In this document: in pieces, positions 2 to 47,319 of the stretch | Position numbering within the stretch: the stretch's first letter is position 1 | Layout: each line of letters opens with the position of its first letter | Assembly (NCBI RefSeq): GCF_021206925.1 | Contig: NZ_JAJPRF010000008.1 | Span: forward strand, 62,001-126,000 | DNA length: 64,000 nt | Direction: 5' to 3' | Origin: Rhodoflexus caldus | GTDB lineage: Bacteria > Bacteroidota > Bacteroidia > Cytophagales > Thermoflexibacteraceae | Program-made: the position numbers and the translations under genes | Notes under the pieces: generated by a model | Told to the model about the DNA's origin: nothing | Seen by the model: the letters and a program-made list of their open reading frames with translations, nothing else | The model's database searches: none

Positions 2-1033
2 CAAATCGGTGGGGTAGTGCTGGCAAATGCCTGCGGCCCTTGCATTGGTCAGTGGTCGCGCCACGTAAATGACCCCAACAAGCCGAACTCCATCATTACT
101 TCGTTCAACCGCAACTTTGCCAAGCGCAACGATGGCCTTTCTTCTACTCACGCTTTCGTAGCTTCACCTGAAATTGTTACGGCATTTGCCATTGCCGGAG
201 ATTTGACTTTCAACCCAATGAAAGACAAACTCATCAACGAAGACGGACAGGAAGTAATGCTGGATGAACCGCAAGGCCTCACTGCGCCTCCGAAAGGCTA
301 TGCAGTGGAAGATGCCGGCTACCAAGCTCCGGCGGAAGACGGCAGCAAGGTACAGGTAATTGTAAGCCCGACTTCTGACCGCTTGCAGATTCTGGAACCT
401 TTCAAACCATGGGAAGGAACAGACTTGAAAGGTTTGAAACTCCTCATCAAGGCAAAAGGTAAGTGTACTACCGACCATATTTCCATGGCTGGCCCTTGGT
501 TGAAGTATCGCGGCCACTTAGACAATATTTCTAACAACCTGCTGATTGGCGCTACGAATGCCTTCAATGGTGCTACTAACAGCGTGAAAAACCAACTCAC
601 AGGCCAATATGGCGAAGTTCCTGCCGTACAACGCGCCTACAAAGCAGCAGGCATAGGTTCAATCGTTGTAGGCGACGAAAACTACGGCGAAGGCTCGAGC
701 CGTGAGCACGCCGCCATGGAGCCGCGTCATTTGGGCGTTCGCGTGATTCTGGTAAAATCTTTTGCCCGTATCCACGAAACCAACCTGAAAAAACAAGGTA
801 TGCTCGCGCTGACTTTTGTCAATAAAGAAGATTACGACAAAATTCAGGAAGATGATACCATTGATGTAATCGGTTTGACGGAGTTTACCCCGGGTAAAAA
901 CCTAACTATCCGCCTGACTCATGCAGACGGTTCTGTGGAGGAGTTCCCCGTGAAGCATACTTACAACGAGCAGCAAATCGGCTGGTTTAAAGCGGGTTCT
1001 GCGCTCAACCTGATTGCAGCCAAAGGTAAGTAA
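2..1033 (+). CDS. acn: aconitate hydratase, C-terminal part (cut by window edge)
   Basis: Catalyses citrate-isocitrate interconversion in the TCA cycle, in the cytoplasm. The reading frame is already open at base 2, so the true start lies left of the window and 343 residues are visible. The visible part opens with [16 protein letters not shown], which carries the C-x2-C pair that ligates the 4Fe-4S cluster. It then contains the swivelling C-terminal domain with the substrate loop [14 protein letters not shown] and the [15 protein letters not shown] segment. The arrangement matches the mitochondrial-type monomeric aconitase of about 750 residues. It stops with TAA and is followed by a very strong terminator. 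Unlike the LeuC/LeuD-like pair near 39-42 kb, this copy keeps the canonical GSSRE loop and acts as an internal reference. Confidence 0.95.
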
Positions 1034-34470: not shown

Positions 34471-36549
34471 TTAATAATGCAAATCAATCACAATATTGCG
34501 GTAGTTGTCCATGCGGACGGTGCTGTTGCTGCCAATAATGGTGGTTGATTCCATTTCCTCAATTACGGCAGGGCCGGCAAAACTGTCGCCCGGATTGAGT
34601 AGGTAACGGGCATACACGCGGCACTGCTGTGGCACGGGCTTGCCACCTTCCATGAAATACAGCGTCCGTTCGCCTTTGAGCGCTTGGCTACCCGTTGTGC
34701 TGACCACCTGCCGCGGCTGAATCTGAGGCACGGGTGCACTCACTACTACACGCCATGTTACGGTTTCCATTCCGATGTCGTCAATGCTTCTGCCATAGCG
34801 CAGTTCATATTCGGCAATAAATCGCTTATGGATTTCGGGAATGCTGGCCGCGCTCAATGTGCCGTTGGGTATGCGCACCGAAATTTCATGTCCCTGACCT
34901 GTGTAGCGCATATCGGCAATGCGGGTAATTTGGGCTTCTGAGCGGTTGATACCCGACTTTTCAAGGAATTTGAAGCCTTCTTCTTCCATTTCCGCCAGCA
35001 TGGTATTGAGTTTGTGCCAGTCCATTTCATCAATCGGGCAAACCAAGCTGCGGATTTGCTCACTTGCCACAGGCGATACCAGAAAGCCCAGCGCCGACAC
35101 CACGCCCGCACCTACGGGAATAATCAGTTGTGGGGAGTTGAGCAAGCGCGCCACCTGAAAAGCATGAACAGGACCTGCACCGCCAAAAGCAAGCATAGAG
35201 TAGCCGCGAGGGTCGCGCCCTTTTTCCAAAATATGCACACGAGTGGCATTTGCCATATTTTCATTCACAATGCGATGCACGCCCATGGCTGCCTCTTCTA
35301 TACTGATTCCCAGTGGTTTGGCAATGTGCGTTTCAATGGCTTTACGGGCAGCGGCGATGTCTAATCGCATGGTTCCGCCCAGAAAATAATCGGGATTAAG
35401 GTAGCCCAGCACAAGGTCGCAGTCGGTAACGGTGGGCTTTTCGCCGCCGCGCCCGTAGCAGGCAGGGCCGGGTTCTGATGCTGCACTTTCCGGGCCGACT
35501 TTCAGCAGCCCGAGGTTGTCTATGTGTGCAATGCTGCCGCCTCCTGCGCCAATCTCAATCATGTCAATCACGGGAATGCGAACGGGCAAACCGCTGCCTT
35601 TTTTGAAGCGACGCACACGAGCAGCCTCAAATTGGTTAGTAATTTCGGGTTCGTTGTGGTTGATGAGTGAGGCTTTGGCAGTCGTTCCGCCCATGTCAAA
35701 TGCCAGCAAGTCGGGCTTGCCTATCAGTTTGCCGTAGAAAACCCCTGCCATGGTGCCGCCTGCGGGGCCTGACTCGAGCAACTGAATCGGTGTGTGGCGA
35801 GCACCTTCAATGGTAGTCAAGCGGCCACTGGAAATCATGATATTAATAATGCCGTTGAAGCCCAAATCGCGCAGCCGCTTTTCCAAATGACCAAGATATT
35901 GGTCGGTAATGGGCTGTACGTAGGCATTCATCGCCGTTGCCGAACTGCGCTCATACTCGCGAATTTCGGGCATTACTTCGCAGGAAAGACTCACGTAAAT
36001 ATCGGGATGGTGCTTTCTGATGTATTCGCCGACGGCCTTTTCATGCGCAGGGTTGGCAAAAGAGTGCAGGAAACAAACGGCAATGGACTTGACTCCTGCC
36101 TGTAACAAGTCATCAACCACGGTTGCGATTTCATCGGCAGCAATGGGCGTTACAATTTCGCCTTTGTAGTTAATGCGCTCGGTAATGCCTTTGCGCAAAT
36201 TGCGCGGCACAAGCGGCTCAGGCACAGACAGATTAATATCGTAAATATCATAGCGCAACTCGCGACCGATTTCCAGTACATCTTCAAAACCTTTGGTAGT
36301 AATCAGGCCTGTCGGTGAGCCGCGCCGCTCAATCACGGCGTTTGTTACCAGCGTTGTGCCGTGTACAATCGTGCTGAGTTGGCTTGCTTGCACACCCACA
36401 CGTGCCAACAGTTCGGTTGTTCCTTTGATAATACCGTTGGAGGGGTCGTCGTAGGTGGTGAGCGTCTTGCCAAAGTGCAATTCGCCCGTTGCTTCGTTGA
36501 GTAATACAAGGTCGGTAAAAGTGCCGCCGATGTCTATGCCAAGTTTCAT
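34471..36549 (-). CDS. hydantoinase/oxoprolinase family protein, subunit A (HyuA), without HyuB
   Basis: It has 692 residues. The N-terminal ASKHA-type ATPase has KLGIDIGGTFTDLVLLN, VHGTTLVTNAVIERRG, VMPEIREYERSSATAMNAYV, LESGPAGGTMAGVF and LAFDMGGTTAKASLI. The C-terminal part has AFGGAGPVHAFQVARLL. Members hydrolyse or carboxylate rings and ketones with ATP (N-methylhydantoinase, oxoprolinase, acetone and acetophenone carboxylases). HyuA normally works with HyuB, and no HyuB is in the window; the gene is the last of the leftward cluster and ends at a strong terminator. It starts 19 bases after the SDR gene. The substrate is unknown. Confidence 0.87.
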   Translation of the reverse strand: MKLGIDIGGTFTDLVLLNEATGELHFGKTLTTYDDPSNGIIKGTTELLARVGVQASQLSTIVHGTTLVTNAVIERRGSPTGLITTKGFEDVLEIGRELRYDIYDINLSVPEPLVPRNLRKGITERINYKGEIVTPIAADEIATVVDDLLQAGVKSIAVCFLHSFANPAHEKAVGEYIRKHHPDIYVSLSCEVMPEIREYERSSATAMNAYVQPITDQYLGHLEKRLRDLGFNGIINIMISSGRLTTIEGARHTPIQLLESGPAGGTMAGVFYGKLIGKPDLLAFDMGGTTAKASLINHNEPEITNQFEAARVRRFKKGSGLPVRIPVIDMIEIGAGGGSIAHIDNLGLLKVGPESAASEPGPACYGRGGEKPTVTDCDLVLGYLNPDYFLGGTMRLDIAAARKAIETHIAKPLGISIEEAAMGVHRIVNENMANATRVHILEKGRDPRGYSMLAFGGAGPVHAFQVARLLNSPQLIIPVGAGVVSALGFLVSPVASEQIRSLVCPIDEMDWHKLNTMLAEMEEEGFKFLEKSGINRSEAQITRIADMRYTGQGHEISVRIPNGTLSAASIPEIHKRFIAEYELRYGRSIDDIGMETVTWRVVVSAPVPQIQPRQVVSTTGSQALKGERTLYFMEGGKPVPQQCRVYARYLLNPGDSFAGPAVIEEMESTTIIGSNSTVRMDNYRNIVIDLHY

Positions 36550-36568: not shown

Positions 36569-37408
36569 TTAATGATATTCTTCGCCGCCGCTGACGTTCA
36601 TTGCCTCGCCGGTGATGTAAGCCGCCATGTCTGAGGCAAGGAAAAGACAGGCTTTGGCGATGTCTTCCACAAATCCGGTGCGCCCCAGCGGGTTGCGGTC
36701 GCGGATGCCTTGCAGGTAGGTTTCGTAGTCCAAGCCGAATTTTTCGCTGAAAAACTTGTTTTGCCAATGCCCCAGCCCTGTGGTGATGTGGTTGGGGCAA
36801 ACCGCATTGACGCGAATACCGAACTTGCCCAATTCAACGGCATTGGAGCGCGTCAGGCCGACTAAGCCGTGTTTGGAAGCCGTATAAGCTGCCGCATATG
36901 GGAAGCCCGATTTGGCCGCCTGACTGGCAATGTTGATAATGTTGCCGCCTCTGCCTTGTTCTATCATGCGGATGGCTGCCTGTTGGCTGCACAGGAACGC
37001 ACCTTTCAGGTTTACGTCCAACACGGCATCCCAACTTGACTCCTTAAATTCGGTAAAAGGCTCCATTAAGTAGCCTACACCTGCATTGTTAATCAGTACG
37101 TCAATGCTGCCAAAGGTTTCTACAGCCTTGTCTATCAGATTTTTACAGTCGGCAGCTATTCTTACATCGCAGGGTACGGCAATGGCTTTTCCGCCGCGGG
37201 CAATACATTCTTCCGCAATGCCGTTCATTTCATCGGTGGCGCCGATATGTTCTGCACTGAATTCGCTGCCTTTGGGCTGTCCAAGGTCGGAAATGACAAT
37301 GTTGCAACCCATTTCCGCGAAAGCATAGGCAATAGCCTCACCAATGCCCTTGCGCCTGCCGGAACCTGTAATAACAACTGTTTTACCTGTTAAGTCATTC
37401 ATTTTCAT
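36569..37408 (-). CDS. short-chain dehydrogenase/reductase
   Basis: It has about 279 residues. The NAD(P) motif is VVITGSGRRKGIGEAIAYAF, followed by VLINNAGVGYL (NAG), IINIASQAAKSGFPYAAAYTASKHGLVGLTR with the Ser and Tyr-x3-Lys of the active site, and GIRVNAVCPNHITTGLG. The tail GEAMNVSGGEEYH is usual. It belongs to the classical SDRs that oxidise or reduce alcohols and ketones. Genes on both sides are within 35 bases, so it is in the leftward cluster with hyuA and the STAS-like gene. Several Met codons lie at the start; the exact one is unclear. Confidence 0.88.
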   Translation of the reverse strand: MKMNDLTGKTVVITGSGRRKGIGEAIAYAFAEMGCNIVISDLGQPKGSEFSAEHIGATDEMNGIAEECIARGGKAIAVPCDVRIAADCKNLIDKAVETFGSIDVLINNAGVGYLMEPFTEFKESSWDAVLDVNLKGAFLCSQQAAIRMIEQGRGGNIINIASQAAKSGFPYAAAYTASKHGLVGLTRSNAVELGKFGIRVNAVCPNHITTGLGHWQNKFFSEKFGLDYETYLQGIRDRNPLGRTGFVEDIAKACLFLASDMAAYITGEAMNVSGGEEYH

Positions 37409-37442
37409 ATGCTTGTACATTTTAACTGCCGTGAAAAGGTTT

Positions 37443-37847
37443 TTAACTGGTCAGTAACCACTTCTTTGCTTCTTCCTTATCAAAGAAATACTTGACCGAC
37501 ATATTGCCTGTTTTCTCAATTCTTTGATTTTCCATTTTGATGGAAAATTCGCTGAAAAGATTTTTGGCAGGAATAATGGCTATTTTCCTACCGCCGGGCA
37601 TGGCTTTGTCAAAGGCAGGTTGCCATTCGGTAAAAAACCATGTGTGGTCGTTAGGGTGCACGTTCATGTTGCGCTGGTCGAGCAACCATAAAATAACTTT
37701 ATGGGTAATTGCAAATTCGCCCGACTTCAATACGCCCGTTCTGAATTCTTCCGATTTGGTAATGTTACCGAAATAAGAAATTTCAATCATCTGATTGTCG
37801 TCATTGAACAATACTTCAACAGTTGCACCTTTGAAAATAGTTTGCAT
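37443..37847 (-). CDS. STAS/SpoIIAA-like small protein, paralogue of 6909-7310
   Basis: It has 134 residues, soluble. The order of elements is the same as in the 6909-7310 protein: an N-terminal beta pair (ATVEVLFNDDNQMIEISYFGNIT), a helix, a strand ILWLLDQRNMNV, a helix WFFTEWQPAF, then KIAIIPAKNLFSEFSIKMENQR and the ending VKYFFDKEEAKKWLLTS. The end KYF(F)D-x-EAxxWLL is shared. Function is unknown; it may regulate the surrounding cluster by analogy with STAS proteins, which is speculative. Confidence 0.62.
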   Translation of the reverse strand: MQTIFKGATVEVLFNDDNQMIEISYFGNITKSEEFRTGVLKSGEFAITHKVILWLLDQRNMNVHPNDHTWFFTEWQPAFDKAMPGGRKIAIIPAKNLFSEFSIKMENQRIEKTGNMSVKYFFDKEEAKKWLLTS

Positions 37848-37904: not shown

Positions 37905-38216
37905 CTAAATTTCATCAGTAAGGATGAAAATCGGATTGTCCGCAAGTTGCTGAAATTTTGCGGGAATTTCCGCCATTTTAGGCTCAGCACCCATATCTGC
38001 TACCAAACTGTCCACGGATTTAAAGTGAATCACTTCAAAGTATTTGTACGGTGGTGCAGCATCCGAACCGAATAAGCCCGATGCTTTGTAAACCTTAAAA
38101 TCGCTGACGGACTTTAAACTCTTAACGGTCGGGATATCTAATTCTTTGGCAAAAGCCTCATATTCAGCCTCCGATACACCGGATTTCAGGTTGAAAAGTA
38201 CGATTAGTGTTTTCAT
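37905..38216 (-). CDS. RedY/HapK-like dimeric alpha-beta barrel protein
   Basis: It has 103 residues: MKTLIVLFNLKSGVSEAEYEAFAKELDIPTVKSLKSVSDFKVYKASGLFG, then YKYFEVIHFKSVDSLVADM and AEIPAKFQQLADNPIFILTDEI. The PTVKSLKSVSDFKVYKASGL segment and the ending QLADNPIFI resemble the RedY/HapK family, a dimeric alpha-beta barrel of prodigiosin clusters and of unrelated catabolic clusters. A general EthD/NIPSNAP-like fold is the alternative. It probably binds or turns over a small aromatic or keto compound, which is inference. Confidence 0.65.
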   Translation of the reverse strand: MKTLIVLFNLKSGVSEAEYEAFAKELDIPTVKSLKSVSDFKVYKASGLFGSDAAPPYKYFEVIHFKSVDSLVADMGAEPKMAEIPAKFQQLADNPIFILTDEI

Positions 38217-38403: not shown

Positions 38404-39165
38404 CTAATTTCCTGCATTTGCGAAGGTTTTGGCTGCTCCGCCCAGCATTCCGCCCGTATAGTTCATAATTATTTTTGCACCTTTGGTAATCAGTGTTTTT
38501 GCCTGTTCGGCATTGCCTGCCGTTGTACCGATGATGAGGTTATGGGCAAGCACAATCTCAAAAATGCGGTCAATGGTTTGCTGCACTTCGGGATGTGAGG
38601 GGCCGTCGTAGAAGCCCATGCTCATTGCCAAGTCGCGAGGGCCGATGATGAACCCATCCACGCCGGGCACTTTACACAGTTGTTCCAGATTTTCAACGGC
38701 TTGCATGTCTTCCACCTGTGGCAGTACCAGTGTTTGCTCGTTGGCAAAGCGCACATAGTCGGCCTGCGGCATTGCACCCAGTCCGAAGTTCCAAGCACGG
38801 ACGGGGCCTAAGCCGCGCTCGCCCACAGGCGGATATTTGACGGCTTTGACCAATGCCTCAACTTCTGCAACGGTGCTCACACCGGGCATCATTACGCCCA
38901 TAACTCCTGCATCCATGAATTGCAGGATGAGTTTGGCATCGGTGCTGCGGATGCGTGCCAGCGGGGTGATGCCAGTTGCCTCGCAAGCGCGGATGATTTC
39001 CAACGCCTGCGCTACGGTAATAGCTCCGTGTTCGCAGTCAATGATATAATAATCAAGTCCCGCATGGGCGCAGATTTCGGCTGTCATCGGGTCGGCAAAG
39101 TTGGAAATAACGCCCAAGGCGGCCTTTCCTTGTTGTATTTTGGCTTTTACTGCGTTTGTCTTCAT
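38404..39165 (-). CDS. HpcH/HpaI family aldolase
   Basis: Class II pyruvate-type aldolase, 253 residues. The motifs are IIDCEHGAI (E45, H46), ITPLARIRSTDAKLI, GVMMPGVSTVAEVEALVKAVKYPPVGERGLGPVRAWNFG, LPQVEDMQAVENLEQL and GVDGFIIGPRDLAMSMGF. The metal-binding Glu and Asp are within the last two. The family cleaves 2-oxo-hydroxy acids, for example 4-hydroxy-2-oxoheptanedioate or 2-keto-3-deoxy-L-rhamnonate, to pyruvate and an aldehyde. It stands between a hydratase pair and an SDR, which is consistent with a carbon-chain breakdown route. The exact substrate is open. Confidence 0.88.
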   Translation of the reverse strand: MKTNAVKAKIQQGKAALGVISNFADPMTAEICAHAGLDYYIIDCEHGAITVAQALEIIRACEATGITPLARIRSTDAKLILQFMDAGVMGVMMPGVSTVAEVEALVKAVKYPPVGERGLGPVRAWNFGLGAMPQADYVRFANEQTLVLPQVEDMQAVENLEQLCKVPGVDGFIIGPRDLAMSMGFYDGPSHPEVQQTIDRIFEIVLAHNLIIGTTAGNAEQAKTLITKGAKIIMNYTGGMLGGAAKTFANAGN

Positions 39166-39276: not shown

Positions 39277-39819
39277 TCAACGCAACAGGTGCGCGGTGCC
39301 GTTGGCGATTTTTTGTTTGACAAATTCTACCAAGCCGCCCGCTTCGGCTACTTCTAACACGAAAGGTGCCAGCGGTGCGGTTTCGCGCGTTTCGCCCGTG
39401 CGCAGGTTTTTAACCGTGTTGGTTTCCATGTTAAACTCCAACTCGTCACCTGTTTGGCAAATAGAAACCAAGTTTTTCACGGTGATGAAAGGCAGCCCGT
39501 AGTTGGTCGCATTGCGGAATTGCAGGCGCGAAAAGGAATCGGCAAAAACGGCTTTGATACCTGCGCCCATTAGCCCTGTTACAACGTGTTCAATGCTTTT
39601 GCCGCCGCCTGCGAAATTGTGCCCCGCTACGATGAAGGTATAACCCGCATCTTTGAAGGCATTTTCTTTGTCAAATTCGGGCGAAACACCGCTCATGATG
39701 AACTTGCTGTTGAGTACCTTGTCAATTGGGTCTGTCCAGAATTTTTGTACGACAATATCGTATGCCATCACGTAGCCCGAAGCTACCCAGCATTTGCCGC
39801 GAATAATTTTGTCTGACAT
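39277..39819 (-). CDS. highly divergent LeuD/aconitase-type small subunit
   Basis: It has 180 residues with the swivel fold of isopropylmalate/homoaconitate dehydratase small subunits: YTFIVAGHNFAGGGKSIEHVVTGLMGAGIKAVFADSFSRLQFRNATNYGLPFITVK. The canonical loop is G-x-N-F-G-x-G-S-S-R-E, which binds the substrate carboxylate; here it reads GHNFAGGGKSIEH (66-78), so the Ser and Arg are missing. The N-terminal D-x-D-T-D region is also altered. It is therefore unlikely to be an ordinary LeuD. The LeuC-like large subunit is 1.4 kb upstream, separated by a membrane protein gene. It may form a hydratase for an unusual substrate, as dimethylmaleate hydratase does; that is inference. Confidence 0.78.
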   Translation of the reverse strand: MSDKIIRGKCWVASGYVMAYDIVVQKFWTDPIDKVLNSKFIMSGVSPEFDKENAFKDAGYTFIVAGHNFAGGGKSIEHVVTGLMGAGIKAVFADSFSRLQFRNATNYGLPFITVKNLVSICQTGDELEFNMETNTVKNLRTGETRETAPLAPFVLEVAEAGGLVEFVKQKIANGTAHLLR

Positions 39820-39826
39820 AGTTTTT

Positions 39827-41140
39827 TCATTTTACAATTTCAAAATTTCTTTCCGCCATAAGCAGGTTGCCGCCCCACAGTTCCATGGTGTAGTTGCCTG
39901 CCACGGCCTCATTGGCTTCCAATACTTTGCGATAAGCCCACCAATCGGTGCCGCCTTTGTTGCTCAATTGCTGGTCAATGTTGCGGATGATGTTGCCTTT
40001 GCTGTCTTTTACCTTCCAAGTCAGCAGGATTTTGCGCTGATTGATTTTTGGCCAGTACACATAGCCGTATACCTCGGAGGCAGATTTAAAAACAGAGGTG
40101 CGATTGACCGGTTTATCGTTCTGCATCCCCGTAGTAAGTGCTACATCGGCATTGCCGGTGCTGATATCAAAGGAACGTTCATTGGCAAGCTCGCCATTAA
40201 TCAGTACTTTAACCTTCCATTTGCCCGTTTGAATGCTTCGGTAGTCAATCATCATCGGGCTGTAGGCGTAGTAGGTTTCAGAGTCAGGTTTTAAGTCGAG
40301 GTTGTTGGTATGAACCATGTTGCCCTCGGGGTCGTAATACTCCCAAACCACTTTAAAAATGTTATTGGCCGTTAGTTCTTTGAATGTTACATGGCACAAT
40401 ACCATTGTGTCGGTCAGCGCCTCATAACCGTTCAGATTTTGCAAGGCTCTGAAATTATTATCTACCCCCCGAGTGAAGGTTATCTGTGTCTTGAAAGTAC
40501 CTTTGACCAATGTAAAAGGCTTTTCTGCCACCTTTTTGTCAAAAATTTTCAGCACAGCTTTCCACTGCCCCAAGGGCATTTGCGGGGCAAGGCTAAAAAG
40601 CCGGTAGGCTACCATACCCTTTGGCGACTTTACATAACTGACTTTTTCTGCCTGAAACGGTACGCCGTCGTTGGGCGGATGCAGTTCCCATTGTACGGCC
40701 TCCCCGTAGTCGCCGTTGATGAGCGCGTGAACGAAGAAAGATGCACTTGTTGTGGTAATGGTATCGGTTACTTCCAAAGGCAAATAAGTGGTTGCGTCGA
40801 GCTTTTTGGCAATGCTGAGCTGTACTGTACCACTGAAAGTTTTAGGGCGGAAAATCCAGACAATCAGTGCGATAACGGCAACTCCGGCAGCTATCCACAT
40901 CCACATTCTTTTTCGCTGTTCGGCACGCGCTGCTTCGGCTTCTTTTTCCTGAAGCATTTGTTGATAGGCTTCTTCCAACTTATCGGAAGGAATGCCCATT
41001 TCGGCGGCTACTTGTTTAAGTGCCTCAAAGTCATGCTCTTTCGTGTCGGCATGAATGTGCTCCTGATTGGTAAGGTAGTAAGCCTTTTCAATCAGGGTAT
41101 TGAAATCCTTGTCTGAAATTTTTCGCACAGGTTTAGCCAT
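39827..41140 (-). CDS. single-span membrane protein between the LeuC- and LeuD-like genes
   Basis: It has 437 residues. The N-terminal 65 residues are helical and resemble a widespread short cytoplasmic module (ALKQVAAEMGIPSDKLEEAYQQM). A basic stretch and one membrane helix follow (MWMWIAAGVAVIALIVWIF, about 84-102), then about 330 residues of beta-rich extracytoplasmic sequence with repeated WxV/WK patterns (GQWKAVLKIFDKK, GKWKVKVLINGEL, GNYTMELWGG). The repeated strands suggest three Ig-like or transthyretin-like domains. No family name is assigned. It lies 7 bases from the LeuD-like start and 84 from the LeuC-like stop. Confidence 0.65.
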   Translation of the reverse strand: MAKPVRKISDKDFNTLIEKAYYLTNQEHIHADTKEHDFEALKQVAAEMGIPSDKLEEAYQQMLQEKEAEAARAEQRKRMWMWIAAGVAVIALIVWIFRPKTFSGTVQLSIAKKLDATTYLPLEVTDTITTTSASFFVHALINGDYGEAVQWELHPPNDGVPFQAEKVSYVKSPKGMVAYRLFSLAPQMPLGQWKAVLKIFDKKVAEKPFTLVKGTFKTQITFTRGVDNNFRALQNLNGYEALTDTMVLCHVTFKELTANNIFKVVWEYYDPEGNMVHTNNLDLKPDSETYYAYSPMMIDYRSIQTGKWKVKVLINGELANERSFDISTGNADVALTTGMQNDKPVNRTSVFKSASEVYGYVYWPKINQRKILLTWKVKDSKGNIIRNIDQQLSNKGGTDWWAYRKVLEANEAVAGNYTMELWGGNLLMAERNFEIVK

Positions 41141-41224: not shown

Positions 41225-42490
41225 TTACAGCAATCGGGGGTCGGAGATAACACCCGATAAGGCAGAGGCAGCCACTACCGCAGGGGAAGTCAAATAGATT
41301 TGTGCGTTTTTGCTGCCCATGCGGCCTTTCATATTGCGATTGCCTGCGCTGAGTACAATATCGCCGTCGCCTGCTACCCCTGTATGAATGCCCGCGCAGG
41401 AAGCACAACTCGGAGTATCTACTGCTACGCCCGCTTCTACCAAGTCGGTGATATAGCCCGCACGCAGTGCGTCTAAATAGACCTGCTGACTGGCCGGCAC
41501 CAAAATAAAGTTTACGTCGGGGTGGACTTGCTTGCCTTTCAGAATTTGCGACAGTACGGCGATGTCTTCTAATCTGCCGTTTGTACAAGTGCCCACAAAA
41601 GCCTTGTTGAACTTGCGGCCGACTACTTTTTCCACCGGCACAACGTCATCCAACTTATCGGGCAAGGCTACCGTCGGGCCAATGTTGGTAACATCCACCT
41701 CATAAACCGCATCGTAATGTGCGTCGGGGTCGCTGGCAATCATTTCCCAATCGCCTTTTTGTACGGGGCGTAGGTAGTCAATGGTTTTTTGGTCGGGTGC
41801 AATAATGCCGTTTTTCGCGCCCAAATCTACGGTCATATTGCAGAGCGTCATGCGGCCTGCAATATCCAAGGCCTCAATGGCAGGGCCTGCATATTCCAAT
41901 GCTTTGTAAATCAGGTGGCCGTTCCAGTGCATCATGCCCATGATGTGCAGGCTGAGGTCTTTTGCCATCACATAGGGCTGCCATTTGCCTGTGATATGAA
42001 ACTTCACCGATTCCGGCACGCGAAACCAGCACTTGCCGATAGCCATTGCCACAGCGGCATCGGTTACGGAAACGGCATTACCAACTGCGCCGACTGCACC
42101 GTAGGTATTGGCGTGGCTGTCCGTTCCAACGCTGATTTTGCCGGGCAGTACGTGCCCGTTTTCTACCATAACCTGATGGGCTATGCCTTGTCTGCCCAAA
42201 TCGTAGAAATATTTGATGTTGTGTTCCTTAACAACCTGCCGCCATTCGTTCAGCATGGTGGCAAAAGCAGGCGTAGGGGGTGGAACCAAATGGTCTGAAA
42301 CGCAGATAACTCGCTCACGGTCAAATACTTCTGTTTTGCCTAATTCGTGCAGGCTTTTAAAAGTAGATTTACCAAGGTAGTCCATCGTCATAACGGAAAA
42401 AACATCCGTCCAGACCAATTCTCCCGGTTTCACCTTGTCGCGGCCACTGTTGTAGGCCATAATTTTTTCAGTGATGGTCATTCCTGCCAT
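41225..42490 (-). CDS. LeuC-like large subunit (aconitase/isopropylmalate dehydratase superfamily)
   Basis: It has 421 residues, the length of archaeal-type IPM/homoaconitate dehydratase large subunits rather than the 465-residue bacterial LeuC. The cluster ligands are intact: Cys302 in FVGTCTNGRLEDIA, and Cys362 and Cys365 in DTPSCASCAGIHTG. Other boxes are VCVSDHLVPPPTP, ISVGTDSHANTYGAVGAVGNAVSVTDAAVAMA and FHITGKWQPYVMAKDLSLHIM. It would hydrate/dehydrate a hydroxy acid together with the divergent small subunit at 39277. No leuA or leuB is nearby, so leucine synthesis is not indicated. It is the first gene of the leftward cluster reaching hyuA. Confidence 0.88.
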   Translation of the reverse strand: MAGMTITEKIMAYNSGRDKVKPGELVWTDVFSVMTMDYLGKSTFKSLHELGKTEVFDRERVICVSDHLVPPPTPAFATMLNEWRQVVKEHNIKYFYDLGRQGIAHQVMVENGHVLPGKISVGTDSHANTYGAVGAVGNAVSVTDAAVAMAIGKCWFRVPESVKFHITGKWQPYVMAKDLSLHIMGMMHWNGHLIYKALEYAGPAIEALDIAGRMTLCNMTVDLGAKNGIIAPDQKTIDYLRPVQKGDWEMIASDPDAHYDAVYEVDVTNIGPTVALPDKLDDVVPVEKVVGRKFNKAFVGTCTNGRLEDIAVLSQILKGKQVHPDVNFILVPASQQVYLDALRAGYITDLVEAGVAVDTPSCASCAGIHTGVAGDGDIVLSAGNRNMKGRMGSKNAQIYLTSPAVVAASALSGVISDPRLL

Positions 42491-42730: not shown

Positions 42731-43231
42731 TCAGGCATTTACGGTTGCTTCCCGCACTTCGCTTGGAATATTGTACTGCCCGATGGCATCGTAGTCGGTT
42801 TGTTCCTGTGTGGAAACTTGCCGTTCTTCAATCATTGTCAGTCCTTCAAAGCGCCCGCTGTGGCTCCATTGCCAAACGCGCATCCGATGGCCGGGGCCGA
42901 TGGTGTTGATGATTTCGTAGAGTTTGCTGCCCGGGTCGGCCTTGTAAGTCCACTCCAAAATAATGGAGTCGCCGCTTTCCCATGAAGTACCGTAAATACG
43001 GTCGTTGTCAAAGGTCATAATACCGGCTTCGTTGAAGTAGTTTTTGCCGAAGTTGTGTCGCTCATAGCGACCGTTGTCCCAAAAGTATTCGTTGAGTTGT
43101 TCCCAACAGTTACCGTTTAGGCGTAGTGTCAAACGGCTTTTGTGATGGTCAAGTACCTTTCCGTCAGGTGAAAGCCGTGTGTAGGTGCCTTCCCATACGC
43201 CGGTGTGCAGCGGAAATAGTTTCAGATTCAT
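42731..43231 (-). CDS. DUF3598-like (lipocalin-fold) protein
   Basis: It has 166 residues, cytoplasmic: LKLFPLHTGVWEGTYTRLSPDGKVLDHHKSRLTLRLNGNCWEQLNEYFWDNGRYERHNFGKNYFNEAGIMTFDNDRIYGTSWESGD. This is the DUF3598 beta-barrel pattern (GVWEGTY..G..LDxHxS). Small lipocalin-like proteins bind hydrophobic ligands; the ligand is unknown. It is divergent in content from the upstream MetH unit and may belong to the LeuC-like cluster, 240 bases away on the same strand. Confidence 0.72.
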   Translation of the reverse strand: MNLKLFPLHTGVWEGTYTRLSPDGKVLDHHKSRLTLRLNGNCWEQLNEYFWDNGRYERHNFGKNYFNEAGIMTFDNDRIYGTSWESGDSIILEWTYKADPGSKLYEIINTIGPGHRMRVWQWSHSGRFEGLTMIEERQVSTQEQTDYDAIGQYNIPSEVREATVNA

Positions 43232-43494: not shown

Positions 43495-46400
43495 TTAATA
43501 CCCCAGTACAGGGCTAAGCCATCGCTCAATTTCTTCTACTGACATCCCTTTGCGGGCGGCGTACTCCTCTACTTGGTCTTTCCCGATTTTGCCCAAGCCG
43601 AAGTATTTGGCTTCGGGGCTGGCATAATACCACCCACTGACTGCCGCCGCCGGATACATAGCGCAACTTTCGGTTAGTTGTAAGCCGATGTTTTCGGTTA
43701 CATGCAACAGTTGGAACAGTGTGCGTTTTTCCAAATGGTCAGGGCAGGCAGGGTAGCCCGGTGCAGGACGAATGCCTACGTACTTTTCGTGAATCAGGGC
43801 ATCGTTGTCCAAATTTTCATCCGGTGCGTACCCCCAAAATTCCTTGCGGACACGTTCGTGCATACGTTCTGCAAAGGCTTCTGCGAGTCGGTCGGCAAGA
43901 GCTTTTACCATGATGCTGCTGTAATCGTCGTGCTGTGCTTCATATTGGCGGGCAAGTTCTTCCGCACCGATGCCTGCCGTAACGGCAAATGCACCTATAT
44001 AGTCCTCTCTGCCGCTCGATTTGGGTGCTATGAAGTCGCTCAGGCAGAAGTTGGGGAGATTTTTCGCCTTTTTGTTTTGTTGGCGCAGATTGTGGAGCAG
44101 TGTGGCTACCAATTGGCGATTTTCCTTGTAATGTACGTGCTTGTGCGAGCCGTGTACATCGCAAGTAGTTTCGAGCACAAGTTCCTCAAAATCATAAAGT
44201 TCTATATCATCTTCTACGCTGTTGGCAGGGAAAAATCCGATTACTGCTTTTGCCTGCAACAGGCGGTTGTCAATAATATGTTTGAGCATTACCTGTGCGT
44301 CGTCATAGAGTTTGCGGGCTTCGCTGCCTACCACAGGGTCATTCAGAATGGCAGGGAAGCGGCCGGCCAGTTCCCAAGACTGAAAGAATGGCGTCCAGTC
44401 AATATATCGTGCCAATTCGGCCAGCGAATAATCCTGAAATACTTTCACTCCCAAAAAAGAAGGCTTAACGATGGGCGCTGTTTCCCAGTCTATCGCAACC
44501 TTGTTCCGACGTGCTTCTTCAAGGGTGATGTAATTTTTTGCACCCTGACGTGCGGCATGTTCGGTGCGAAGTTTTTCGTATTCTTCGCGAATTTGATTGA
44601 CCAATGCGTCTTTGGTGCCTTCCTCTTTGCTGACGAGGGCAGCAGCTACCGGCACACTGCGCGAGGCATCCAATACGTGAATAACAGGGTGGCTGTATTG
44701 GGGCGCAATTTTTACTGCGGTATGGATGCGCGAAGTAGTTGCTCCGCCAATGAGGAGCGGAGTCGTCATTTTGCGCTTTTCCATTTCCTGAGCCACATAT
44801 ACCATTTCGTCCAGCGAAGGAGTAATCAGCCCCGAAAGGCCGATAATATCTACATTTTCTTTTTGGGCGGTGTCAAGGATTTTTTCCAGCGGCACCATTA
44901 CCCCCAAATCAATGATTTCGAAGTTGTTACACGCAAGTACTACGCCTACGATATTTTTACCGATGTCGTGTACGTCTCCTTTAACGGTTGCCAGCAGAAT
45001 TTTGCCTGCACCGCTGCTTTGCAAGGCATCGGGGTTGTTGCGCTTTTCTTCTTCAATAAACGGAATCAGATAGGCAACGGCTTTTTTCATTACGCGGGCA
45101 CTCTTTACCACTTGCGGCAAAAACATTTTCCCCTCGCCGAAAAGGTCTCCGACGATGTTCATGCCATCCATCAGGGGGCCTTCAATTACTTGCAGCGGCC
45201 GCTCGTAGAGTTGTCGCGCTTCTTCGGTGTCTTGTTCGATGTATTCTACAATTCCTTTAATGAGAGCGTGTTTTAGGCGCTCTTGCACGGGTTCGTTGCG
45301 CCACGCTTCGTCTTTTACGATTTCCTTGCCTTTGTTTTTAACGTGCTCGGCAAATTCAACCAACCGTTCGGTAGCATCGGGGCGGCGGTTGAGCAGCACG
45401 TCCTCGATGCGTTCCAGCAAGTCTTTTGGGATTTCTTCGTACACCTCAATCATGCCGGCATTAACAATACCCATGTCCATGCCTGCCTGAATGGCGTGGT
45501 ATAGAAAAGCAGAGTGCATGGCTTCGCGCACTACGTCGTTGCCGCGGAACGAGAAGGAAATATTGCTTACGCCGCCCGAAACTTTTGCACCCGGCAGGTT
45601 TTCTTTAATCCATTGGGTGGCGCGAATGAAATCAACGGCGTAGTTGTTATGCTCCTCAATGCCTGTGGCTACGGTCAGGATGTTGGGGTCAAAGATGATG
45701 TCTTGCGGCGGGAAACCGACTTCGTTCACCAGAATATCGTAGCTGCGTTTACAGATTTCTATGCGGCGTTCGTAGCTGTCGGCCTGTCCTTGTTCATCAA
45801 ACGCCATTACTACCACGGCTGCACCGTAGCGGCGAATCAGGTGTGCGTGTTCTTTGAATTTTGCCTCACCTTCTTTCAAAGAAATGGAATTGACGATGCC
45901 TTTGCCCTGCACACATTTCAAACCTGCTTCAATTACGCTCCATTTGGAGGAGTCTATCATCACGGGTACGCGCGCGATGTCGGGTTCTGCGGCAATGAGG
46001 TTTAAAAATTTTACCATTGCGGCTTCGGAATCCAACATGCCCTCATCCATGTTGATATCAATAATCTGTGCGCCGCCTTCTACCTGCTGGCGGGCAATGT
46101 CTAATGCTTCTTCGTAATTTCCCTCTTTGATGAGGCGGGCAAATTTGCGGCTGCCTGTAACGTTGGTACGCTCGCCGATATTGACAAATCGCGTTTCAGG
46201 GGTGATGTTGAGCGGCTCTAATCCACTGAGGTGCAGGTAGTTGTCTTTTTCGGGAATTTGACGAGGTTTGTAGCGGGCAACCGTTTGGGCAATAGCGCGA
46301 ATATGTTCGGGCGTAGTGCCGCAACAGCCGCCGACAATGTTCAGCAAACCTGCCTCTGCAAACTCAATTAATTGCGCTACCATTTGTTCGGGTGTTTCAT

Positions 46401-47319
46401 CGTACTGCCCGAACTCGTTGGGTAAGCCTGCATTGGGGTAAATGCTGACCGCTACGTTGGCTACTCGGCTCAATTCTTTGGCATAGGGCAACATCAGGCG
46501 CGCCCCCAAAGCACAGTTCAGACCTACGCTCATGATGTGTGCATGGGAAATAGAATGCCAAAATGCCTCTGTTACCTGTCCTGAAAGGGTTCTGCCGCTT
46601 TGGTCGGTAATCGTTCCTGAAACCATCACGGGCAATTTTTTGCCGGGTATGCCCAAGAAAGGGAATTGGGTTTTATCGCCTTTCGCACACTCGCGGCGCG
46701 GCGGCATAGATGTATGATGAATCTCGTCAAAATATTTTTCAATGGCAAAAAGGGCAGCTTTTGCGTTCAGTGTATCAAAAATGGTTTCTACCAACAGCAC
46801 ATCTGCGCCGCCATCCACCAAACCGCATACCTGTTCGTAGTAGGCCTCTACCAACTGGTCAAAAGTAACGGCACGATATCCGGGGTCGTTTACATCAGGC
46901 GAAATGGAGGCGGTGCGGTTGGTCGGCCCCAGTGCACCGGCTACGTAGCGGGGTTTATCGGGCTGTTGCGATGAAATTTCATCGGCTACTTCACGCGCTA
47001 TTTTGGCTGATTGATAGTTTAGTTCATACGCCAGTTCTTCCAACTGATAATCGGCCTGTGCAATTCTGGTGCCGCTGAAAGTATTGGTCTCGATAATATC
47101 TGCACCTGCGAGCAAATATTGCCTGTGGATTTCTTTGATGATGTCGGGGCGTGTGATGGAAAGCAGGTCGTTATTTCCTTTTAAATCGTGCGGATGGTCT
47201 TTGAAACGTTCGCCTCTAAAATCTTCCTCGCTGAGTTTGTAACGCTGAATCATGGTTCCCATGGCGCCATCCAGCACCAGAATGCGCTCTTTCAGCAGCT
47301 GACGTATGTCTGTTTTCAT
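43495..47319 (-). CDS. metH: cobalamin-dependent methionine synthase
   Basis: It has 1274 residues, all four modules. The homocysteine domain (about 1-340) has [26 protein letters not shown] and [13 protein letters not shown] with zinc Cys. The methyltetrahydrofolate (pterin) domain (about 355-630) has [20 protein letters not shown]. The cap and B12 domain has [27 protein letters not shown] with the cobalt-binding His near 770. The C-terminal SAM reactivation domain has [22 protein letters not shown] and [18 protein letters not shown]. It transfers methyl from methyltetrahydrofolate to homocysteine. No metF and no cobalamin riboswitch were found upstream. The reverse strand has a long open frame, a shadow of this gene. 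Confidence 0.97.

Follow-up and report, generated by a model that had tools for sequence, protein, structure and literature searches.

A LeuD-like small subunit with lysine at the base-serine position and the gene cluster around it in Bacteroidota

The window analysed here, a whole stretch of 64,000 nucleotides from Rhodoflexus caldus, encodes on its minus strand a LeuD/DmdB-like small (swivel) subunit of 180 amino acids (39277..39819), as identified from its ORF, its Pfam Aconitase_C match and an AlphaFold model. On the plus strand, the same interval contains stops. The original prediction held that this protein, which we call the KSIEH type after its loop, has lost the GSSRE loop of aconitases and isopropylmalate dehydratases and is a hydratase for a different, perhaps larger or less charged, substrate. 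Is the changed loop a defect of one gene copy, a variation that leaves a known function as it was, or the mark of an altered enzyme, and to which pathway would such an enzyme belong?

The variant loop and the fold of the small subunit

Position arithmetic from the ORF together with alignments places the variant active-site loop, GHNFAGGGKSIEH, at residues 66-78 (39586..39624, minus strand), where the canonical loop is NFGxGSSREH, which bears out the predicted loss of GSSRE. The N-terminal DTD motif is gone as well, as had been predicted, and alignment of the family with canonical rows shows MAY in its place at residues 18-20 (39760..39768, minus strand). When aligned to the solved LeuD chains 3vba, 1v7l and 2pkp, NFAGGGKSIEH stands against NF-GCGSSREH, with one residue inserted. 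Lys74 is thereby aligned with the first serine of GSSRE (the Ser642 position), Ser75 with the second serine and Ile76 with the arginine (the Arg644 position), and the anchors N68, F69, G71, G73, S75 and E77 are invariant over 63 rows that comprise both the KSIEH and the GSSRE types. At the DTD site, all 15 canonical rows have D, T and D, whereas the 48 rows of the KSIEH family have M/Y/L, A/S and Y/F. In addition, Trp28, in a region that we take to be the specificity loop, is invariant in the KSIEH family (48/48 rows). Both marks of the classical aconitase, IPMI and HACN small subunits, a GSSRE loop with Ser642/Arg644 and the DTD motif, are thus absent from this protein. The aconitase fragment at the left end of the window (17-1033) retains GSSRE, as the original prediction had stated.

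The small subunit reaches Pfam Aconitase_C with 34.8 bits (cut-off 22.8). An AlphaFold model built from 63 rows has a mean pLDDT of 92.7; it replaced a model from 6 rows, which had a pLDDT of 72.6 and was poor around residues 21-29. VIA-align matched the model to 3vba_A with a Z of 24.4 and an rmsd of 1.8 over 169 aligned residues at 40% identity, and to residues 547-754 of mitochondrial aconitase with a Z of about 17.7 and an rmsd of 2.4 over 171 residues. The results show that the predicted fold of the KSIEH small subunit is that of an ordinary LeuD swivel domain.

Among the known systems, the isopropylmalate/citramalate isomerase LeuCD of methanogens (3vba, small subunit; 4kp1, large subunit) is like the KSIEH pair in fold, heterodimer layout and Fe-S ligands, but the KSIEH pair lacks GSSRE and DTD, has lysine for the base serine and one extra loop residue, carries fixed changes in LeuC and is not adjoined by leucine genes. 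Dimethylmaleate hydratase DmdAB is alike in its catabolic context, and among the NCBIfam models the LeuD/DmdB family TIGR02087 gives the small subunit its highest score; however, this match stays under the curated cut-off (91.3 versus 108.95 bits), and the neighbour in our locus is an HpaI aldolase, whereas nicotinate degradation uses a lyase of the isocitrate-lyase/PEP-mutase type.

The large subunit and conservation of the pair

The partner is a LeuC-like large subunit of 421 amino acids (41225..42490, minus strand), which was assigned from its Pfam Aconitase domain (PF00330, E 3.6e-88), its NCBIfam matches and residue mapping. It reaches NF001614 with 502 bits (cut-off 385) and passes the cut-offs of the IPMI/HACN subfamilies. 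The three cluster cysteines that had been predicted for it, Cys302, Cys362 and Cys365, are present in 64/64 family rows, which places it among the large subunits of the aconitase superfamily. Identical in all 64 family rows and in 33/33 canonical LeuC rows are, besides these cysteines, D66-H67, H105, D124-S125-H126, N218, R385 and R390. By residue mapping, the residues from H105 onwards correspond to H147, D165-S166-H167, N258, R447 and R452 of mitochondrial aconitase, and D66-H67 is presumably its D100-H101 pair. Two positions are changed throughout the family: Glu262 (mitochondrial aconitase numbering) is replaced by Asp222 and Thr168 by Ala127, each in 64/64 family rows, versus Glu and Thr in 33/33 canonical rows. 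Taken together, the retained residues and the fixed changes show that the iron side is preserved, and that the base and carboxylate side has been rebuilt in both subunits.

The loop is not peculiar to one genome. A scan of one-genome-per-species contigs returned 59 loci, all from Bacteroidota by title, with Kapaibacterium counted in by lineage. The scan used two peptide patterns from the KSIEH family itself, one around the DTD site and one just before the loop; the second stops at HN, so KSIEH itself lies outside the pattern. Since the patterns derive from the family, the scan catches close relatives only, and confinement to Bacteroidota cannot be shown by it. FAGGGKSIEH is identical in 65/65 Bacteroidota rows, which consist of the 59 scan loci, 5 loci from a phylum sample and the window, and at least 3 of which are duplicate contigs. 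Cultured strains with the loop include Maribacter vaceletii DSM 25230, Maribacter algarum RZ26 and Aquimarina sp. RZ0. Other Bacteroidota small subunits have GSSRE in 25 of the 25 cases looked at.

Synonymous variation is found at all 12 codons of HNFAGGGKSIEH (48 rows). The dN/dS ratio was 0.016-0.041 in 9 of 12 pairs, with dS saturated in the remaining 3. In a tree made by a quick method from rows that we picked by hand, 48 KSIEH and 15 GSSRE rows fell on opposite sides of one branch (SH-aLRT 99). The KSIEH small subunit is therefore under strong purifying selection and forms one clade apart from the GSSRE subunits.

Given so unusual a motif, and with many of the loci taken from metagenome assemblies, one might have suspected gene decay or an error in sequencing or assembly. 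This explanation is refuted and retains next to no probability, since the loop is invariant in cultured strains and in independent assemblies and dN/dS is far below 1. Nor is this a single corrupted copy with GSSRE in nearby species: the KSIEH loop is present in all six of the most similar genomes in the phylum sample, that of Rhodoflexus caldus included.

Genes around the pair and their co-occurrence

On the minus strand of the window, the genes are ordered DUF3598_N, LeuC, a 437-amino-acid protein, LeuD, an HpaI-type aldolase, a HapK-like protein, a 134-amino-acid protein, an SDR and HyuA. The first gene of this conserved cluster, DUF3598_N (42731..43231, minus strand), is identified by Pfam with 38.1 bits (cut-off 22). 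The 437-amino-acid protein between LeuC and LeuD (39827..41140, minus strand) reaches no family above cut-off in the Pfam and NCBIfam profiles and is lineage-specific, with tblastn matches only in L038 and L039 among the 59 loci; an FAD amine-oxidase-like gene occupies its place in many other genomes. Downstream of LeuD lies an HpcH/HpaI-type class II aldolase of 253 amino acids (38404..39165, minus strand; Pfam E 7.3e-34), whose nearest solved chains are HpcH/HpaI aldolases and in which the EH, R, E and D motif positions are conserved over 54 aligned rows. It is followed by the HapK/RedY-like small protein (37905..38216, minus strand; Pfam HapK 37.7 bits, cut-off 25) and by a SpoIIAA-like protein of 134 amino acids (37443..37847, minus strand), a lineage-specific passenger that stays below the Pfam cut-off and has tblastn matches only in L038 and L040 among the 59 loci. 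The SDR-family oxidoreductase (36569..37420, minus strand) was assigned from a domain match and is conserved in related loci. The last gene encodes HyuA, a caprolactamase-like hydantoinase/oxoprolinase alpha subunit (34471..36549, minus strand; Pfam E 4e-86), for which CapA is the nearest NCBIfam, below its equivalog cut-off, and the N-methylhydantoinase 7hk5 gives a match of 442 bits; HyuAB is closest to caprolactamase and N-methylhydantoinase. The MetH neighbour (43495-47319) was dropped as a cluster member, since conservation near the pair in other genomes does not extend to it.

Gene presence was counted over the 52 of 59 loci in which the gene is flanked by 5 kb or more on either side, as presence anywhere in the stretch, using single-linkage clusters named from one or two members; in 2 of the 52 loci, the LeuD ORF itself was missed in ORF calling. 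LeuC was found in all 52, DUF3598_N in 50, HpaI in 48, SDR and HyuA in 47 each, HapK in 44, HyuB and a SAM methyltransferase in 43 each, a SnoaL-like protein in 35, the FAD amine-oxidase-like protein in 34, FAD_binding_2 in 33, MFS transporters in 30, CpeT in 28, and a TonB receptor and DUF1838 in 20 each. In 50 of 56 loci, the ORF that comes directly after the KSIEH ORF is that of HpaI, on the same strand. An HpaI match is absent from the examined stretch in 5 of the 59 loci, which suggests that the pairing of KSIEH and HpaI is not obligatory, or that the two are sometimes unlinked. In several loci, CpeT, DUF3598_N and perhaps DUF1838 cluster around catabolic genes; we presume these families to be calycin-like, which would suit the binding of hydrophobic ligands. 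In at least six loci, a second LeuC/LeuD pair, of the GSSRE type, is found no farther than about 12 kb from the KSIEH pair, and class III CoA transferase or HMG-CoA-lyase-like genes are near the second pair in several loci.

Among 395 Bacteroidota genomes, the KSIEH gene was found in six: besides Rhodoflexus caldus itself, five genomes have it at 67-70% identity, and the next best match is at 43%. HapK occurs in exactly these six genomes, as do HyuB at 65-73% identity (next, 36%) and DUF1838 above its cut-off, with a seventh genome below the cut-off. CpeT was found in 28 genomes, all six with the KSIEH gene and 22 without it. Since the six genomes span three families, the independent events number about three, not six. 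In Rhodoflexus caldus, HyuB, which completes the hydantoinase/oxoprolinase AB enzyme with the HyuA of the window and is 73% identical to that of Maribacter, is encoded on a contig other than that of the KSIEH pair, as are the methyltransferase, CpeT and DUF1838; linkage alone therefore cannot explain the co-occurrence. According to PMC4609964, a lignin dimer causes mild up-regulation of a HapK gene in Novosphingobium.

The genome of Rhodoflexus caldus has two further LeuC/LeuD sets. A leucine-type pair lies on contig C3 beside ORFs that resemble leucine genes by eye, and LeuC2 and LeuD2, the latter with GSSRE, lie on contigs C6 and C2. A role in leucine biosynthesis is thus unnecessary for the window pair, whose neighbours are not leucine genes and which is not the sole LeuCD of the genome, contrary to what is expected of a leucine-biosynthesis IPMI.

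Outside Bacteroidota, a plasmid search for relatives gave 44 records, all below 60% identity. The small subunits of the nine plasmid loci read, six of them matches of this search and three added through neighbour genes, all have GSSRE (9/9). The sphingomonad plasmids have SDR, HapK, methyltransferase, C10 and HyuAB in common with the Bacteroidota loci, but in the stretches read their small subunits are of the GSSRE type only. The DUF1838 loci of Streptomyces and Novosphingobium P6W contain no related cluster.

Proposed reaction and competing explanations

In PMC8184944, Ser642 of mitochondrial aconitase is described as the general base, 20 active-site residues are given as completely conserved in all aconitases but AcnX, and AcnX is reported to retain the equivalent serine, mutation of which to alanine nearly abolishes activity. 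Since Lys74 replaces the equivalent of Ser642, catalytic chemistry, and not specificity alone, should differ in the KSIEH pair, and a lysine at the base-serine site is outside the range described in that paper. The original prediction had regarded the loop serine and arginine as substrate contacts. The departure from them is real and conserved, but a view of substrate binding only is incomplete, because the replaced serine is the general base (PMC8184944). In the same way, the predicted hydratase with a different substrate agrees with the conserved departure and the intact Fe-S partner, but the prediction missed the change in catalytic chemistry. Aconitase X, a cis-3-hydroxyproline or mevalonate 5-phosphate dehydratase, already provides a case of an aconitase relative whose active site and substrate differ; however, in AcnX the base serine is retained and it is the cluster ligands that have moved (PMC8184944), whereas the KSIEH pair keeps the ligands in the aconitase positions and loses the base serine. 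The pair falls outside AcnX, and its fold match to AcnX is weaker (Z 9.4).

We consider that there is about an even chance that the pair works as a heterodimeric hydro-lyase with a [4Fe-4S] cluster, of the LeuCD/DmdAB type but with a rebuilt base side, which feeds the HpaI-type aldolase in an undescribed catabolism of a lactam or imide. The gene set around the pair probably serves to degrade a cyclic nitrogen compound. Most likely, the ATP-dependent HyuAB would open the lactam or imide to an unsaturated acid, the KSIEH pair would hydrate this to a hydroxy acid, for example a 2-oxo-3-enoate to a 4-hydroxy-2-oxo acid, and the HpaI-type aldolase would split the hydroxy acid, releasing pyruvate together with an aldehyde on which the SDR would act. 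In the active site, the substrate hydroxyl or water would still bind to the cluster in LeuC at its open iron, Lys74 may act as acid/base instead of a serine alkoxide, and the loss of Arg644 and of the DTD aspartate may let the pocket take a neutral or hydrophobic group at the site that a carboxylate occupies in aconitases. A larger or less charged substrate would fit the Ile76 at the Arg644 position and the invariant Trp28. Against this scheme, the lysine need not be the base, since Ser75 could take over, and the HpaI step needs a 2-oxo acid, which no cluster neighbour is known to make. The order of hydratase and HpaI aldolase is like that of the HpcG/HpaI pair of homoprotocatechuate degradation, in which HpcG is, as we understand it, no Fe-S enzyme; the KSIEH locus would use an aconitase-type pair for the hydration. 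If the proposal is true, a clade that keeps the Fe-S side and turns the base serine into lysine shows that the best-studied Fe-S hydratase fold can alter its chemistry. In addition, the gene set marks a probable catabolic pathway, and since it occurs in marine Maribacter and Aquimarina that can be cultured, both enzyme and pathway are directly testable.

As far as titles and abstract starts in the open-access literature go, with subscription papers outside it, neither the loop variant, the gene cluster nor strain JE1, a Sphingomonas discussed below, is described; the surrounding pathway is undescribed to that extent, which is no proof of novelty. A bolder form of the proposal, which we hold to be rather unlikely, is a new catalytic class in the aconitase fold, in which a [4Fe-4S] hydratase would use lysine in place of serine. 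The lysine would serve as the general base, or might even form a Schiff base with a 2-oxo substrate, and the hydratase would belong to a Bacteroidota pathway, so far undescribed, that acts on lactams or on fragments of tetrapyrroles (bilins) and has HyuAB, HapK, CpeT and DUF1838 proteins as its markers.

The pair might instead act on a known type of substrate, such as citraconate, dimethylmaleate or isopropylmaleate, with the changed residues compensated and the function the same as in a DmdAB-like enzyme. The closeness in identity and fold (40%, Z 24.4) to the small subunit of the methanogen isopropylmalate/citramalate isomerase 3vba is consistent with this, as is the passing of the IPMI/HACN cut-offs by LeuC. 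We find it unlikely, since the organism has a leucine-type pair and LeuC2/LeuD2 besides, and since GSSRE is retained in every other small subunit looked at in Bacteroidota (25/25) and on plasmids (9/9). It is decidedly improbable that the hydratase activity has been lost and that the pair is a ligand-binding or iron-sensing (IRP-like) protein: although the general base is replaced and the function of many cluster neighbours is not assigned, all Fe-S ligands and Asp-His pairs are retained in 64/64 rows, an invariance that a mere binder would not need, and the genes are placed among catabolic enzymes and transporters.

The preferred reading, hydration within lactam or imide catabolism, also has a more specific form, in which the compounds are bilins or maleimides from the degradation of chlorophyll, phycobilin or haem; as a speculative lead we regard it as quite unlikely. 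Opening of the lactam or imide would fall to HyuAB, the resulting alkylmaleic or maleamic acids would be processed by the KSIEH hydratase, and in part of the genomes a second GSSRE hydratase, a CoA transferase and an HMG-CoA-lyase-like enzyme would join in, a set that would suit alkylmaleates where these genes lie near a GSSRE LeuCD. The presence of the CpeT/CpcT (bilin lyase) family in 28 of 52 loci and in all six KSIEH genomes of the 395 points in this direction, and the nearest solved relative of CpeT is the phycocyanobilin lyase CpcT (E 5e-6). However, the similarity to CpcT is weak, none of the enzymes identified in the cluster cleaves haem or bilins, and the sphingomonad plasmids have SDR, HapK, methyltransferase and C10 without the KSIEH gene. 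The use of CpeT to pin down a bilin substrate is further weakened by its presence in the 22 genomes that lack the KSIEH gene.

Related modules were also seen elsewhere. Positions 1-29268 of plasmid pJE1 of Sphingomonas sp. JE1 encode LeuD (GSSRE), DUF3108, a TonB receptor, MmgE/PrpD, SDR, HapK, a SAM methyltransferase, FAD proteins and HyuA/HyuB, a cluster related to the Bacteroidota set. A module of CoA transferase, an HMG-CoA-lyase-like protein and canonical LeuC/LeuD is found on plasmids of Haloferax lucentense and Peribacillus frigoritolerans, and in the latter it adjoins riboflavin kinase and flavin reductase genes.
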